Source: an uncultured Chthonomonas sp. (GTDB lineage: Bacteria; Armatimonadota; Chthonomonadetes; Chthonomonadales; CAJBBX01). Taken from it: DNA of 64,000 bases. The notes under the pieces were generated by a model. That model was not told the origin of the DNA. It saw only the letters and a list, made by a program, of their open reading frames with translations, and ran no database searches. Within the stretch, counting starts at the first letter, position 1; each line of letters begins with the position of its first letter. Both the position numbers and the translations under genes were made by a program. The stretch spans positions 1 through 64,000 of the forward strand of contig CAISJD010000082.1 in NCBI GenBank assembly GCA_903885605.1, written 5' to 3'. Of the stretch, positions 40,495 through 47,624 are shown one piece after another.

Positions 40495-41181
40495 GTGAGA
40501 CCGACCCGTATCCTCGCTTTCTGCGCCGCCCTGCTGGGCACGGCCGCGATGGCCGACGACATCGTCACCATGCCTACCGCGAACCAGCTGAAGGCCCGGG
40601 AGTTCGACGCCGCCATCTACTACATCAGCCTCAGCATGCCGGCCGGCGCCCCGCAGTACGTGCAGTACCAAACCCTCTACCTGGGCCTGACGGACCGGCT
40701 GGAGCTGGACCTGCACCGCGCGGCGGTCGATAACGATGCCAAATCCGTCGTCGTGGTGGGCCAGTACAAGCTCCTCTCCGAGGGGCCCGACACTCCCGAC
40801 CTCGTGGTGGGCGTCCGCAACCTGACCGGAGTGGCCACGACCAACTCGCCGCTGCGCTCCTACAGCCGCGAGCGGTCGATCTACGTGGCCACCGCCAAGA
40901 CCTGGTTCGTGCGCAAGGGCGTCCAGGGCCCGCCGCTGATCCGGCTCCACACGGGCATCGGCAGCCGTGACTACTCCCTGATGAACGAGCCGCGCCACGA
41001 GGGCGCATTCGGCGGCATCCAGTGCCTCATCACCCCCACCGTGGGCGCCGTGGTGCAGCACGACGGGCAGGACTGGATCACCGGCCTGACCTACATGCCC
41101 CCGAAGAGCGGCATCACCCTCAAGTTCGGCACGTACGGCGACCACAGCTGGTACGGCGCGGCCTACCGGATGGCCCTGTAA
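40495..41181 (+). CDS. Secreted barrel-like protein of unknown function
   Basis: A 228-residue exported protein. GTG 40495 is chosen because GGAGG lies 7 nt upstream and a signal peptide (ILAFCAALLGTAAMA) follows at once. The mature part opens with DDIVTMPTANQLKAREFDAAIYYIS, a pattern seen in YjbH/barrel-like envelope proteins, and has alternating strands such as RLELDLHRAAVD, KSVVVVGQYKLL and ITLKFGTYGDHSWYGAAYRM near the end. Likely an outer-membrane or periplasmic protein; no specific function can be assigned. Confidence 0.65.
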   Translation: MRPTRILAFCAALLGTAAMADDIVTMPTANQLKAREFDAAIYYISLSMPAGAPQYVQYQTLYLGLTDRLELDLHRAAVDNDAKSVVVVGQYKLLSEGPDTPDLVVGVRNLTGVATTNSPLRSYSRERSIYVATAKTWFVRKGVQGPPLIRLHTGIGSRDYSLMNEPRHEGAFGGIQCLITPTVGAVVQHDGQDWITGLTYMPPKSGITLKFGTYGDHSWYGAAYRMAL

Positions 41182-41198
41182 GGACGCTGCAGAGGCCC

Positions 41199-43040
41199 AT
41201 GGACGGCTTCGTGAGGCCCCGCCGCCTGGCAATGCCCGGCGCGGGCCTCGAAGTCTGGCAGATGGGCTGCAACGCCGGCGTGTTCCGGCGCGGCAGCGGC
41301 TCGCTGATCATCGGCGGGCCGGAAGCCGCCCTGCTGGAGCGCGCCGGCATCGCGCCGGGCTCCGTCGAGGCCGTCCTCTGCACCCACCACGACCGTATGG
41401 CCGCTCCCGGCCTGCCGGAACTGGAGACTGCAGGCGCCCGGGTTACCGCACCGGCGGACGAGGCCGCCCTGTTCCGCGAGGCCCGCTCCTTCCGGCGCGG
41501 CGGCGGGTGGCGGGTTCACGGATACAGCTTCCACCCCTCGCACCGCGTCTTTGCCGTGGATGCGCCGCCGATCGCCGAGGTGCGCCCCGGCGACGCCTTC
41601 GAGTGGCGCGGCGTGCGCTTCAAGGTCTTGCCGGGCGCCGGACCGACCGGTGGCGGCGTCGCGTACCTCGCCGAGGCCGAGGGCCTGCGCGTGGCATTCA
41701 TCGGCGACATGATGTGCGGCCATGGCAGGCTCCGCGAGTTCCACAGCCTGCAGGGCTCGCGCCCCTTGCCCGACGGCGGGCGGATGATGGAGTACCACGG
41801 GTTCGGCGAGCGGTGCGGCGACCTGCTGCAGTCGCTGGAGGCCGTGATTGAGTGTGGGCCGGACCTGCTCGTGCCCTCCTTCGGCGCCGTCGTGACCCAC
41901 CCGGCCGAGGCCGTCGCCCTGCTGCGGCGCCGCATCGAGGCGGCCATGGCGGCCTACCATGCAACCACCTCGGCGTGCTGGTACTTCGCCGGGATGCGGC
42001 CGGAGTGGCCCATCGACCGCTCAGAAGGCGAGGCGAGGCTACGCGCATTGCCGGGTTGGGTCAGGGAGGTGGCGCCCACATCGCGGCTGATCCTGGCGCC
42101 CGACGGCCGGGCCCTGCTGATCGACTGCGCCGGGCAGGCCGCCGACGCTATCGCCGCGCTGCTCGCCGACGGCGCGATCCGCTCCGTGGACTGCCTCTGG
42201 GTCACGCACTATCACGACGACCACGTGGAGAGGGTCAACGAGGCCCGGACCCGGTTCGGATGCGCGATCACGGCTCATCACACGCTGCAGGGCATCCTGG
42301 AGGCGCCGGAGGCCTACCTGATGCCGTGCCTCGACCCGACGCCGATCCCGGTTGACCGGGTGACGAACCACGGCGAGGCCTGGGAATGGCGCGGGTTCCG
42401 GCTGACCGCGATGGACTTCCCCGGCCAGACCGCGCTGGATGCCGCGCTGCTGGTTGAGCGCGACGGCGATCGGGTCCTGTTCGTCGGCGATAGCCTGACA
42501 CCCGGCGGGCTCGATGACTACTGCGCCCTGAACCGCAACCTCCTCGGCGCGGGCCGTGGCATGGATGCCTGCCTCCGGACGCTCGCCTCGCTCCCCTGCC
42601 CCACGCTCCTTGTGAACCAGCACTGCCCCGGCGCGTTCGCCTTCACTCCGCGCGAGGTCGCCGCGCTGCGGGCGGGCTTGCGGACGCGGCGGGCGCGGTT
42701 CCGCGAGCTGCTGGCGTGGGACGACCCCAACTACGGACTGGACGCGCAGTGGGTGCGACTGGAGCCCTACCACCGCACGGTGAGAGCAGGCGAACGCCTG
42801 ACGTGGGAGGTGCTGGTGCAGAACCACAGCGCCGGCCCCTCGGTGGGGCGGGTGCGGTTGCGGGATGTCTCGGGGTCGACCGACGGCTTGCCGCTGTCTG
42901 CCGAAGGACGCTGCGAGGCCCGCTGCACCGTCATGGGCGACGCGCCCCGTGAGCCCGGCGTCCACGCGGCGCTGATCGACCTGGTCTGGAACGGGCGGTA
43001 CCTGCCCGCCGTGGCCGAGGCGGTCGTCGAGGTCCTGTAG
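41199..43040 (+). CDS. Tandem metallo-beta-lactamase-fold protein
   Basis: A 613-residue cytosolic protein with two MBL-like halves. The first (about 10-320) has a degenerate metal motif, CTHHDRMAAPG, with FIGDMMCGHG later. The second (about 320-545) has intact THYHDDHVE (H337, H339, D341, H342), GDSLTPGG and NQHCPG, so it should bind two metals. A C-terminal beta-sandwich (about 550-613, VRAGERLTWEVLVQNHS) follows. The reaction is unknown; MBL hydrolases cleave phosphodiesters, esters or lactams. It converges with the lasso-like cyclase gene, 5 bp apart, with no clear link. Confidence 0.75.
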   Translation: MDGFVRPRRLAMPGAGLEVWQMGCNAGVFRRGSGSLIIGGPEAALLERAGIAPGSVEAVLCTHHDRMAAPGLPELETAGARVTAPADEAALFREARSFRRGGGWRVHGYSFHPSHRVFAVDAPPIAEVRPGDAFEWRGVRFKVLPGAGPTGGGVAYLAEAEGLRVAFIGDMMCGHGRLREFHSLQGSRPLPDGGRMMEYHGFGERCGDLLQSLEAVIECGPDLLVPSFGAVVTHPAEAVALLRRRIEAAMAAYHATTSACWYFAGMRPEWPIDRSEGEARLRALPGWVREVAPTSRLILAPDGRALLIDCAGQAADAIAALLADGAIRSVDCLWVTHYHDDHVERVNEARTRFGCAITAHHTLQGILEAPEAYLMPCLDPTPIPVDRVTNHGEAWEWRGFRLTAMDFPGQTALDAALLVERDGDRVLFVGDSLTPGGLDDYCALNRNLLGAGRGMDACLRTLASLPCPTLLVNQHCPGAFAFTPREVAALRAGLRTRRARFRELLAWDDPNYGLDAQWVRLEPYHRTVRAGERLTWEVLVQNHSAGPSVGRVRLRDVSGSTDGLPLSAEGRCEARCTVMGDAPREPGVHAALIDLVWNGRYLPAVAEAVVEVL

Positions 43041-43045
43041 GCGGG

Positions 43046-44872
43046 CTACAGCGTGATGTGACGCAGGTCGTCGCCGTGGCGCAGAAGCCACCGCTCCAGG
43101 GTCAGGGGCATCCAGAGGTCGTAGCCCTTGCGCGAGCCGGCCAGGAAGGCTTCTGCCGCCGTGGTGAGCCTGCCTGCATCCACCGCGCCCAGGTCGGCCA
43201 GCAGGGGCGCACGGAAGGCCTCCAGCATGGCGTCGCCGTGGACGCGCAGGCCATGCTCAATATAGGGCAGGAAGACCGCCTTGGCGGTGCGGGTTCGCAG
43301 GCTGTCGGGCAGCAGGCCTGCCATGGCCCTGCGGAGGATGACGCGATCCTCGCAGGCGGCGTGGACATCCGTGACGGGTAGCGAGTGGAGGAAGGCGACC
43401 AGCCGCGCGTCCATGAGCGGGCACCGGAGGTCGACGCCCATCTGCGAGAACTGCCGGTTACGCCAGGTGACCGCGCGGCCCACGGAGCCCGCGAGGCCGG
43501 CCACGTGCTCGGGGCGGCGGCCGACCACGCGGGGCCGCTGATCCTGCTGGAGGCGGTCGATGAGGCCCGAACGCTCCGCGAAGCCCCTCTCCAGCCACGA
43601 GGGTAGCGAGATGCGCGCCCGCCCGACGGCGAGGCGCAGGTCGTGCATCAGCGGGTCCATCAGGCCCGGACCCAGCAGGCCGACGGCGCTTCGGAGGTCC
43701 GGCACCTGCCACGCCAGGGCGCCGAGGCGGCCCTCCACCAGGGCGCGCGCCGCGGCATCGCGGGCGGCCACCCAGTGGTGCGCGGCGCAGTCGCCGGTCA
43801 GCACCACGTCGGCGCCCGCTTCGCGGACGAGCCCGCACTGCGCCTGCGCGATCCCCTCCCAGCCGAGGCACGGGCCTTCCAGCGGCTGCTCCAGCTCCGG
43901 CGAACCCGGCAAGGGCTGGTCGCAGGCTTCGACGGTGGCGAGCCTGATCCCCATGTCGGACAGCGGCAGGGTCCATGCCCGCTCATCGCAGGCCGGCAAG
44001 TCACGAAAGACGTTCTGTATAGCGACCGGCGCGGCCGCCTGGCCCTTGCGTGCCAGTCCGTGGGCCAGTACGGCGATGGACGAGGAATCGAGGCCCCCGC
44101 TGACGAGGATGGCCGCCCTGCCCTGCGACGGGATACGCTCCGCCACGGCCTCCTCCAGCAGGCGGCGCAGGGCGTCCGCTAGCCCCGCCGGACCCGACGG
44201 CGGCGCACCGAGGGCCGATGGGGGCATCTCGATGCGGTCGGCGTCCGCCTCGTCGGGCAGGAGCACCACTCCGCCGGGCGGCACGGGACAGATATCGCGA
44301 AAGAGCGTGGTCCTACCGCCGCAGCGGCCGACCAGGAAGTCGCCGACCTCCTCCAGGTCCAGCGCCGGCCGCACCGCCGGGTGGCGAAGCATGGCGGCCG
44401 CCTCAGACGCGAAAAGGGCCACGTGCGTGCCCCTTCCGTGGTAGAGCGGGCGCATGCCCATGGGGTCGCGGGCGAGGAGCGTCACGCCCCGTGCCGGGTC
44501 GTGGACGGCGAGGGCGAAGTCGCCCAGGAGGCGCCGCACGAAGTCGTCGCCCCAGTGCAGGTACGCCGCCAGCAGGAGCTGCTCATCGGTAGAAGCCGAG
44601 GTGAGGTGCGGAGCGACGCCGCGCAGCCTGGCCAGTAGCTCGAAGCGGTTGTCCAGGACGGCGTCGGCCACGAGTGCGCAGCCGTTCGCCGCTTCGGCAA
44701 CGTCCCGCCCGCCGTCCGGTTGCGTCGAAGCCCGGCAGAGGATCGCCGAGCCGCAGGGCAGCGTGGCGGCGGGCGCGCCGTCGGGCAATGCCATGCCGCG
44801 CACCATGTCAAGCGCCACAGCCGCGTCGGGCGAACGCAGGCCGAACTCCACGAAGCCGCAGATGCGGGCCAT
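43046..44872 (-). CDS. Asparagine-synthetase-like lasso peptide cyclase
   Basis: A 608-residue protein of the asparagine synthase B superfamily. The N-terminal Ntn-like domain (about 1-200) begins MARICGF, so the catalytic Cys expected at position 2 of a glutaminase is displaced to position 5. The C-terminal ATP-pyrophosphatase domain holds ILVSGGLDSSSIAV, the AMP-forming P-loop, and a GDCAAHHW region. In lasso systems this enzyme adenylates an Asp/Glu side chain and closes the macrolactam. It is third in an operon with B2 (3 bp apart) and B1, which fixes the lasso-like reading over ordinary asparagine synthesis. Confidence 0.82.
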   Translation of the reverse strand: MARICGFVEFGLRSPDAAVALDMVRGMALPDGAPAATLPCGSAILCRASTQPDGGRDVAEAANGCALVADAVLDNRFELLARLRGVAPHLTSASTDEQLLLAAYLHWGDDFVRRLLGDFALAVHDPARGVTLLARDPMGMRPLYHGRGTHVALFASEAAAMLRHPAVRPALDLEEVGDFLVGRCGGRTTLFRDICPVPPGGVVLLPDEADADRIEMPPSALGAPPSGPAGLADALRRLLEEAVAERIPSQGRAAILVSGGLDSSSIAVLAHGLARKGQAAAPVAIQNVFRDLPACDERAWTLPLSDMGIRLATVEACDQPLPGSPELEQPLEGPCLGWEGIAQAQCGLVREAGADVVLTGDCAAHHWVAARDAAARALVEGRLGALAWQVPDLRSAVGLLGPGLMDPLMHDLRLAVGRARISLPSWLERGFAERSGLIDRLQQDQRPRVVGRRPEHVAGLAGSVGRAVTWRNRQFSQMGVDLRCPLMDARLVAFLHSLPVTDVHAACEDRVILRRAMAGLLPDSLRTRTAKAVFLPYIEHGLRVHGDAMLEAFRAPLLADLGAVDAGRLTTAAEAFLAGSRKGYDLWMPLTLERWLLRHGDDLRHITL

Positions 44873-44875
44873 GGG

Positions 44876-45346
44876 TCAGGCCCCTCCGGGTGCGGCGGGA
44901 CGCAGGGGCTGGAAGCCAGCCAGGCCCTCCGGCCGATCGCCCACCGGCGAGCCGTCGATCTCGACCCAGGCGTGGAAGCGTGGCGGCCCGGCGGACCGGC
45001 TCACCCCGATGCGGAGGCAGGCCGGCACGCCCTCCTCCTCCAGAAGGCGCAGGAGGGTCAGGGCCCGTGGCAGGCAGAGCGGGCGCGGCGACTGGAGGCG
45101 GGCCATCCAGAAGACCAGCCGGAAGAGCTCGGCCGCACGTCGGAGCTGCGCCTCGCCGGCGCGGCCTGAAGCGCCCTTGGGGGCGTCCCAGACGGCCTCG
45201 GCGCTCAGGGGCATGTCGCCGCCCAGGTCGCGCTGATAGCGGCACAGGAGGCGCCAGGCGCGCGGCAGCAGGCGGCGGTCGCGGGCCAGGGCGCAGAGGA
45301 GGCCCGATGCCCTCGCGACCGGCGCGGCCGGGTGGTGCATGGGCAC
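44876..45346 (-). CDS. Lasso peptide biosynthesis B2-like transglutaminase-fold leader peptidase
   Basis: A 156-residue protein matching the C-terminal half of McjB-type enzymes. C91 in LCLPRALTLLRLL, H125 in FHAWVEIDG and D131 nearby form the expected Cys-His-Asp set. The spacing CLPRAL ... GVPACLRIGV ... HAWVE is the family pattern. It would remove the leader peptide from a precursor held by B1. It lies between B1 and the cyclase with gaps of 2 and 3 bp, so the three are cotranslated. No precursor gene was recognised. Confidence 0.82.
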   Translation of the reverse strand: MPMHHPAAPVARASGLLCALARDRRLLPRAWRLLCRYQRDLGGDMPLSAEAVWDAPKGASGRAGEAQLRRAAELFRLVFWMARLQSPRPLCLPRALTLLRLLEEEGVPACLRIGVSRSAGPPRFHAWVEIDGSPVGDRPEGLAGFQPLRPAAPGGA

Positions 45347-45348
45347 GC

Positions 45349-45711
45349 TCAGGCGGTCGGCGGGGGCGAGGGCTGCAGAGCCGCCAGGCCCTTGCCCACG
45401 AGGTCGGACATCAGCTCCAGCAGCCCGGCCTGGAGGCGCTCCCGCTCAACGGAGTAGACGCCGGCGAGCCGGTCCAGCGCCTCCGCCAGCGTGTCGGCCT
45501 CCATGGCGGCCTGCCACATCTGCGTCCCGGACTTGTTCAGCCCGTAGTAGTGGTTGGAGTTGGCGTCCAGGATCACGGCTTCGTCCTGGGCCACGGTGAC
45601 CAGAATGCCCTCCGCAGGCCGGACGCATGAGGCTAACGACACGCAGGGCTCCGGCACTCGGTCCTCCTTGCGCACCTGACGATGCGCGGCAACTGGCAGA
45701 TGGTTCACCAT
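45349..45711 (-). CDS. PqqD-like RiPP recognition element (lasso B1)
   Basis: A 120-residue PqqD-family protein. The winged-helix RRE core is clear: EGILVTVAQDEAVILDANSNHYY then GLNKSGTQMWQAAME and a C-terminal helical pair (VERERLQAGLLELMSDLVGKGL). These proteins bind RiPP leader peptides and present them to B2 and C. ATG 45711 is chosen over the in-frame ATG 45843, as the extra residues are arginine-rich shadow and overlap the divergent gene. It is first in the minus-strand operon. Confidence 0.82.
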   Translation of the reverse strand: MVNHLPVAAHRQVRKEDRVPEPCVSLASCVRPAEGILVTVAQDEAVILDANSNHYYGLNKSGTQMWQAAMEADTLAEALDRLAGVYSVERERLQAGLLELMSDLVGKGLAALQPSPPPTA

Positions 45712-45836
45712 ACCCCGCGCGCGAGCCGTCCCGCAAGATCGGCGCGCAGGAGCCCGGCTGAGCCCATGCGCGGGTGGTAATCTGTTGCGGCTTTCGGCCC
45801 GGTCGCGGGCCTTCCGTCTTCCGAGGTGAGAATGAC

Positions 45837-47510: not shown

Positions 47511-47525
47511 CAGGCTCAGGATGGC

Positions 47526-47570
47526 CACTTTCCTGTGGCAGGGAAGTGGCCATCTTGACGGAGCAGGGCT
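47526..47570. repeat. Short palindromic repeat, copy 1
   Basis: CACTTTCCTGTGGCAGGGAA followed by GTGGCCATCTTGACGG and GAGCAGGGCT. The arms GGCCACTT and AAGTGGCC form a hairpin around a TGTGGCA loop. Near-identical to copy 2, 54 bp away. Confidence 0.6.
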
Positions 47571-47579
47571 CAAGGTGGA

Positions 47580-47624
47580 CACTTTCCTGTGGCAGAGAAG
47601 TGGCCATCTTGACGGAGTAGGGCT
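47580..47624. repeat. Short palindromic repeat, copy 2
   Basis: Differs from copy 1 at two positions over 45 bp (GGGAAG to GAGAAG, and GAGCAG to GAGTAG). Arms CACTT and AAGTG flank the same TGTGGCA loop. Confidence 0.6.

Follow-up and report, generated by a model that had tools for sequence, protein, structure and literature searches.

The genes that mature a lasso peptide usually, if not necessarily, lie in one cluster with the gene of their precursor, and the locus described here raises the question of what such enzymes act on when no precursor is in sight. In the window, by which we mean the whole stretch of 64,000 nucleotides that was analysed, the genes B1, B2 and C follow one another on the minus strand, with 2 bp between the first two and 3 bp between the last two. 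A sequence-only reading had described them as a split-B lasso layout lacking a visible precursor. Coordinates, Pfam scores and NCBIfam scores agree with this arrangement, and judged by the model matches of its three products B1-B2-C is a lasso-peptide maturation operon of the split-B type.

B1 (45349..45657, minus strand) is a predicted discrete PqqD-like RRE of 102 amino acids. It scored 48 bits against Pfam PqqD, over the cut-off, and about 38 bits against the lasso PqqD models NF033536 and NF033530, under their cut-offs. A phmmer comparison matched it to TbiB1 (5v1u) with E=6.9e-6 and more weakly to a lasso PqqD chaperone (9x90) and to TfuB1; by sequence, B1 is a relative of these solved lasso RREs, TbiB1 and TfuB1. 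B2 (44876..45346, minus strand) is a predicted lasso leader peptidase with 60.8 bits to NF033537 (lasso_biosyn_B2, cut-off 33) and 71.8 bits to Transglut_core3, and it is the sole protein in the genome over the Pfam cut-off. The homology of B1 and B2 on which the earlier call depended was therefore recovered by HMM search. The proposed Cys-His-Asp triad also held: Cys91 and His125 are invariant across the aligned B2 proteins of the phylum, and the acidic residue 12 positions past His125 is Asp137 here and Glu in one congener.

The third gene, C (43046..44872, minus strand), encodes a putative asparagine-synthetase-like lasso macrolactam cyclase of 608 amino acids with GATase_7 and Asn_synthase domains. 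Among NCBIfam models it matches the lasso cyclase NF033535 best, with 183.7 bits versus 134.9 bits for asparagine synthase; the former score lies under the 525-bit "exception" cut-off of NF033535. The SGGLDSS ATP-pyrophosphatase loop is intact; Cys5 is not N-terminal, and glutaminase activity is therefore unlikely. A search of its own genome with C returned C only, with 84% identity in two congeners, and the C proteins of two intact lasso clusters can be aligned with it over its length, with identities of 24-29%. An AlphaFold model of C from a five-sequence alignment had a mean pLDDT of 38, too low for use. Downstream of the operon, 5 bp away, lies a convergent metallo-beta-lactamase-fold gene (41022-43040, plus strand), which carries two metallo-beta-lactamase stretches in one protein.

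Where the precursor gene might be expected, immediately before B1, the earlier reading had measured a gap of 125 bp, because it took ATG 45711 as the B1 start. GTG 45657 fits better on sequence grounds: it sits behind AAGGAGGAC, and both congeners retain this ribosome-binding site and the start (as TTG), while the stretch upstream of it has diverged among the three species, yet with the frame open in all three. With GTG 45657 as start, the gap to the divergent phosphodiesterase gene becomes 179 bp (45658..45836). This gap holds no precursor. The three-species alignment revealed no conserved small frame there, so that the nearby frame that related genomes might have disclosed did not appear and a precursor in this gap was ruled out; a strict lasso leader-plus-core rule likewise found none in the 64-kb window, in keeping with the earlier reading that no precursor gene is visible. 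Elsewhere in the window, close to where the synteny block ends, we observed a tandem repeat (47513-47624; 54-bp units, 2.1 copies, 91% match) that holds a CACTTTCCTGTGGCAG motif.

The B1-B2-C cluster also contains no tailoring or transport genes. Such a bare cluster could be read as a decaying one, its enzyme genes being relics after precursor loss. We regard this as very improbable. The three frames are intact in all three species, C retains its catalytic motifs at 84% identity, and the operon's neighbours, gene order and spacing are preserved in both congeners, an Armatimonadetes bacterium from the Lac Pavin metagenome and an uncultured Chthonomonas sp., the only two genomes that a contig scan with C returned. 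Furthermore, a matching precursor exists.

This precursor came from a scan of whole genomes with the DNA pattern Y/F-x2-P-x-L-x3-G-x5-T-x-G. Each of the three operon-bearing species gave exactly one match, at orthologous places, and the pattern also recovered the genuine precursor in the intact lasso cluster of G077, a B2-bearing relative in the same phylum. Across the phylum the pattern yields about 0.5-1 matches per genome, mostly by chance in unrelated DNA, and a match alone therefore proves nothing. The match in our genome, A (G000:C25:29726-29851, minus strand), is a candidate lasso precursor of 41 residues on another contig, with the leader MNVTEVQPYEEPVLTDWGSLLDLTA and the core GNAGGPGDDLATGTLT. 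It combines a YxxPxL leader, Thr at -2, Gly1, Asp8/Asp9 and a C-terminal Thr; no aromatic or otherwise bulky residue that could serve as a plug occurs in the core. The leader agrees with the RRE-binding consensus [Y/W]xxPx[L/V/I/A/F/Y] from the literature (PMC13381572).

Conservation sets A apart from the chance matches. An ATGGAGG ribosome-binding site precedes the frame, and A is 90% identical between species, with a core that is invariant save for L/I10. From Tyr9 on, each pair of species differs by 4 to 7 synonymous codon changes and by 1 to 3 that are non-synonymous, whereas the flanking DNA on either side is diverged. Against lasso_leader_L3 (NF033521) the three orthologs scored 18.0, 17.8 and 18.9 bits, just missing the cut-off of 19. 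In 0.96 Mb of own sequence the strict leader-plus-core rule returned A and one poor match, and no credible paralogous precursor was found. On the 3' side of A is a predicted hairpin region with 22 pairs in all and little covariation. Of the two explanations offered earlier, a precursor that lies elsewhere was thus borne out, in all three species and beside an HprK-like kinase gene; a non-classical substrate is not needed, as A has every feature listed.

The kinase gene, K (G000:C25:28682-29704, minus strand), is the next gene after A and lies outside the window. Its product is HprK-related and contains a P-loop. The kinases that adjoin A in two lasso clusters, those of G077 and of a further genome, G078, are homologs of K; against TIGR04352 K scored 32.6-35.3 bits, far under the cut-off of 200. 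The neighbours of A-K are a thioredoxin-like gene, URO-D, SBP_bac_5 and a C1-like peptidase, and the open frames listed around the pair include no RRE, B2 or C gene. No exporter gene adjoins either locus. The earlier reading had allowed that a conserved precursor elsewhere, under the same control, would make this an ordinary lasso system; the precursor and its conservation were found, but shared control was not, the regions upstream of the operon and of A-K having no common conserved 7-mer as a promoter or operator motif.

The operon lies at 43-45.7 kb of the 77.9-kb contig C82, and A lies 4.7 kb from the end of the 34.6-kb contig C25. From these positions, the two are at least 37 kb apart, and none of the three species has both on one contig. 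The three genomes are fragmented metagenome assemblies of 180-211 contigs, as would suit an artefact of assembly or binning in which the precursor truly sits beside the operon on misjoined contigs, or C25 is foreign. This is hardly credible, given that each locus has the same layout and matching flanks in three separately assembled genomes. The loci also occur together: A and K are present in 3 of the 31 genomes of the order (K has one more match, very weak and interrupted), and close B2 relatives (84-88%) with a full-length C match are confined to these same three.

Together, these data argue that the operon is very probably the maturation half of a two-locus lasso system, [B1-B2-C] plus [A-K], with B1-B2-C acting in trans on A. 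Another possibility is that B1-B2-C act on some other, non-classical or unseen substrate and that A-K is a separate RiPP using another RRE. The genome encodes four PqqD proteins, B1 and three others (loci on C76, C5 and C165), and two of the others adjoin NTP_transf_5 genes. Moreover, LPP-type RiPPs, which are lasso-related, combine an RRE, an HprK-like kinase and an NTP transferase with a YxxP leader, mostly without B2 or C (PMC13381572). Their leader motif is YxxPxVLxHQxIxFETxxS, and an RRE and SpI peptidase lie beside the precursor (PMC13381572). The leader of A, unlike theirs, reads YEEPVLTDWGSLLDLTAG; neither an RRE nor an SpI peptidase gene is seen beside A, which has the lasso-specific T-2, G1 and D8/D9. 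Since A-K and B2/C co-occur exactly across the 31 genomes, and A and K belong to lasso clusters in G077 and G078, we consider a separate RiPP unlikely.

Two of the other PqqD loci were also noted. On C165 (L042:9515-12380), a gene beside PqqD and NTP_transf_5 encodes a peptide of 85 aa whose N-terminus is Tat-like (SRRTLIAAGWTVPVV) and whose tail is rich in Asp, His and Thr; this peptide was dropped as a substrate because it is without the leader motif, and the locus is possibly a further RiPP-like one of the same genome. On C76 (L040:10146-13272), genes for PqqD, a radical SAM protein, an S24-like peptidase and NTP_transf_5 are consecutive, another RiPP-like cluster.

In the more distant Armatimonadota G077 and G078, A and K lie within ordinary lasso clusters; this suggests but does not prove that the split layout is derived. 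The G077 cluster is classic (B1-B2-C-A-K-ABC-NTP transferase), with the leader YKAPVLTVYGDVIDLTQG. In G078 the probable precursor is a 159-aa protein (L070:11473-11952, minus strand) with the leader AYETPELTVHGTIANITE, fused to a Peptidase_S74 intramolecular-chaperone domain (PF13884, 37.8 bits); the fusion was seen in 1 of the 19 genomes of its order. The S74 domain cuts itself off in phage tailspikes, and no link between lasso peptides and S74 was found in the openly available literature. A B2 system of another kind was observed at L066:9879-11589 (minus strand), where B1, an HprK-like gene and B2 stand in a row without a cyclase.

Our analysis establishes the genes, motifs, conservation and co-occurrence of the two-locus system, and these suggest how it might work. 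B1 would bind the leader motif YEEPVL of A, and B2 would cut A after Ala25, that is, after ...LTA with Thr at -2. C would then activate Asp8 or Asp9 of the core with ATP and couple it to the Gly1 amino group, closing an isopeptide ring. The C-terminal Thr (Thr16) may be phosphorylated by K. Since no bulky residue occurs in the tail LATGTLT, it is uncertain whether the product is threaded; with no plug, it could conceivably, though we doubt it, be a branched-cyclic peptide that is not threaded, or else a lasso in which a phosphorylated C-terminal Thr keeps the tail in place.

The system resembles the split-B clusters A-B1-B2-C (fusilassin/fuscanodin; G077) in its discrete RRE, transglutaminase-type B2, AS-like C, and precursor with a YxxPxL leader and Thr at -2; it differs in that A is outside the cluster, at least 37 kb off. 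Paeninodin-type kinases phosphorylate a C-terminal Ser. Like paeninodin-type clusters, A-K has an HprK-related kinase beside a precursor with a hydroxyl residue at the core C-terminus; here, however, that residue is Thr rather than Ser, the leader is YxxP rather than WxxP, and K is far under the TIGR04352 cut-off (about 33-35 of 200 bits). RiPPs with unclustered genes exist, for example lanthipeptides with proteases encoded elsewhere (PMC8960859). As in those, one essential part of the pathway is encoded apart from the rest, whereas here the unlinked part is the precursor with its kinase and the class is lasso. No direct precedent for an unlinked lasso precursor was found in the open literature, which is weak evidence as subscription papers were mostly outside the search.

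The chemistry is known and the parts are ordinary; it is the layout that is unusual, and the puzzle of the missing precursor arose because the search was limited to nearby DNA. Software that restricts its precursor search to the surroundings of B and C labels operons of this kind as orphan. As this case shows, the precursor gene can lie at a distance, next to that of the kinase, and such a gene can be found with a leader pattern whose matches are compared between sister species. The system also adds a lasso candidate for the little-studied phylum Armatimonadota.
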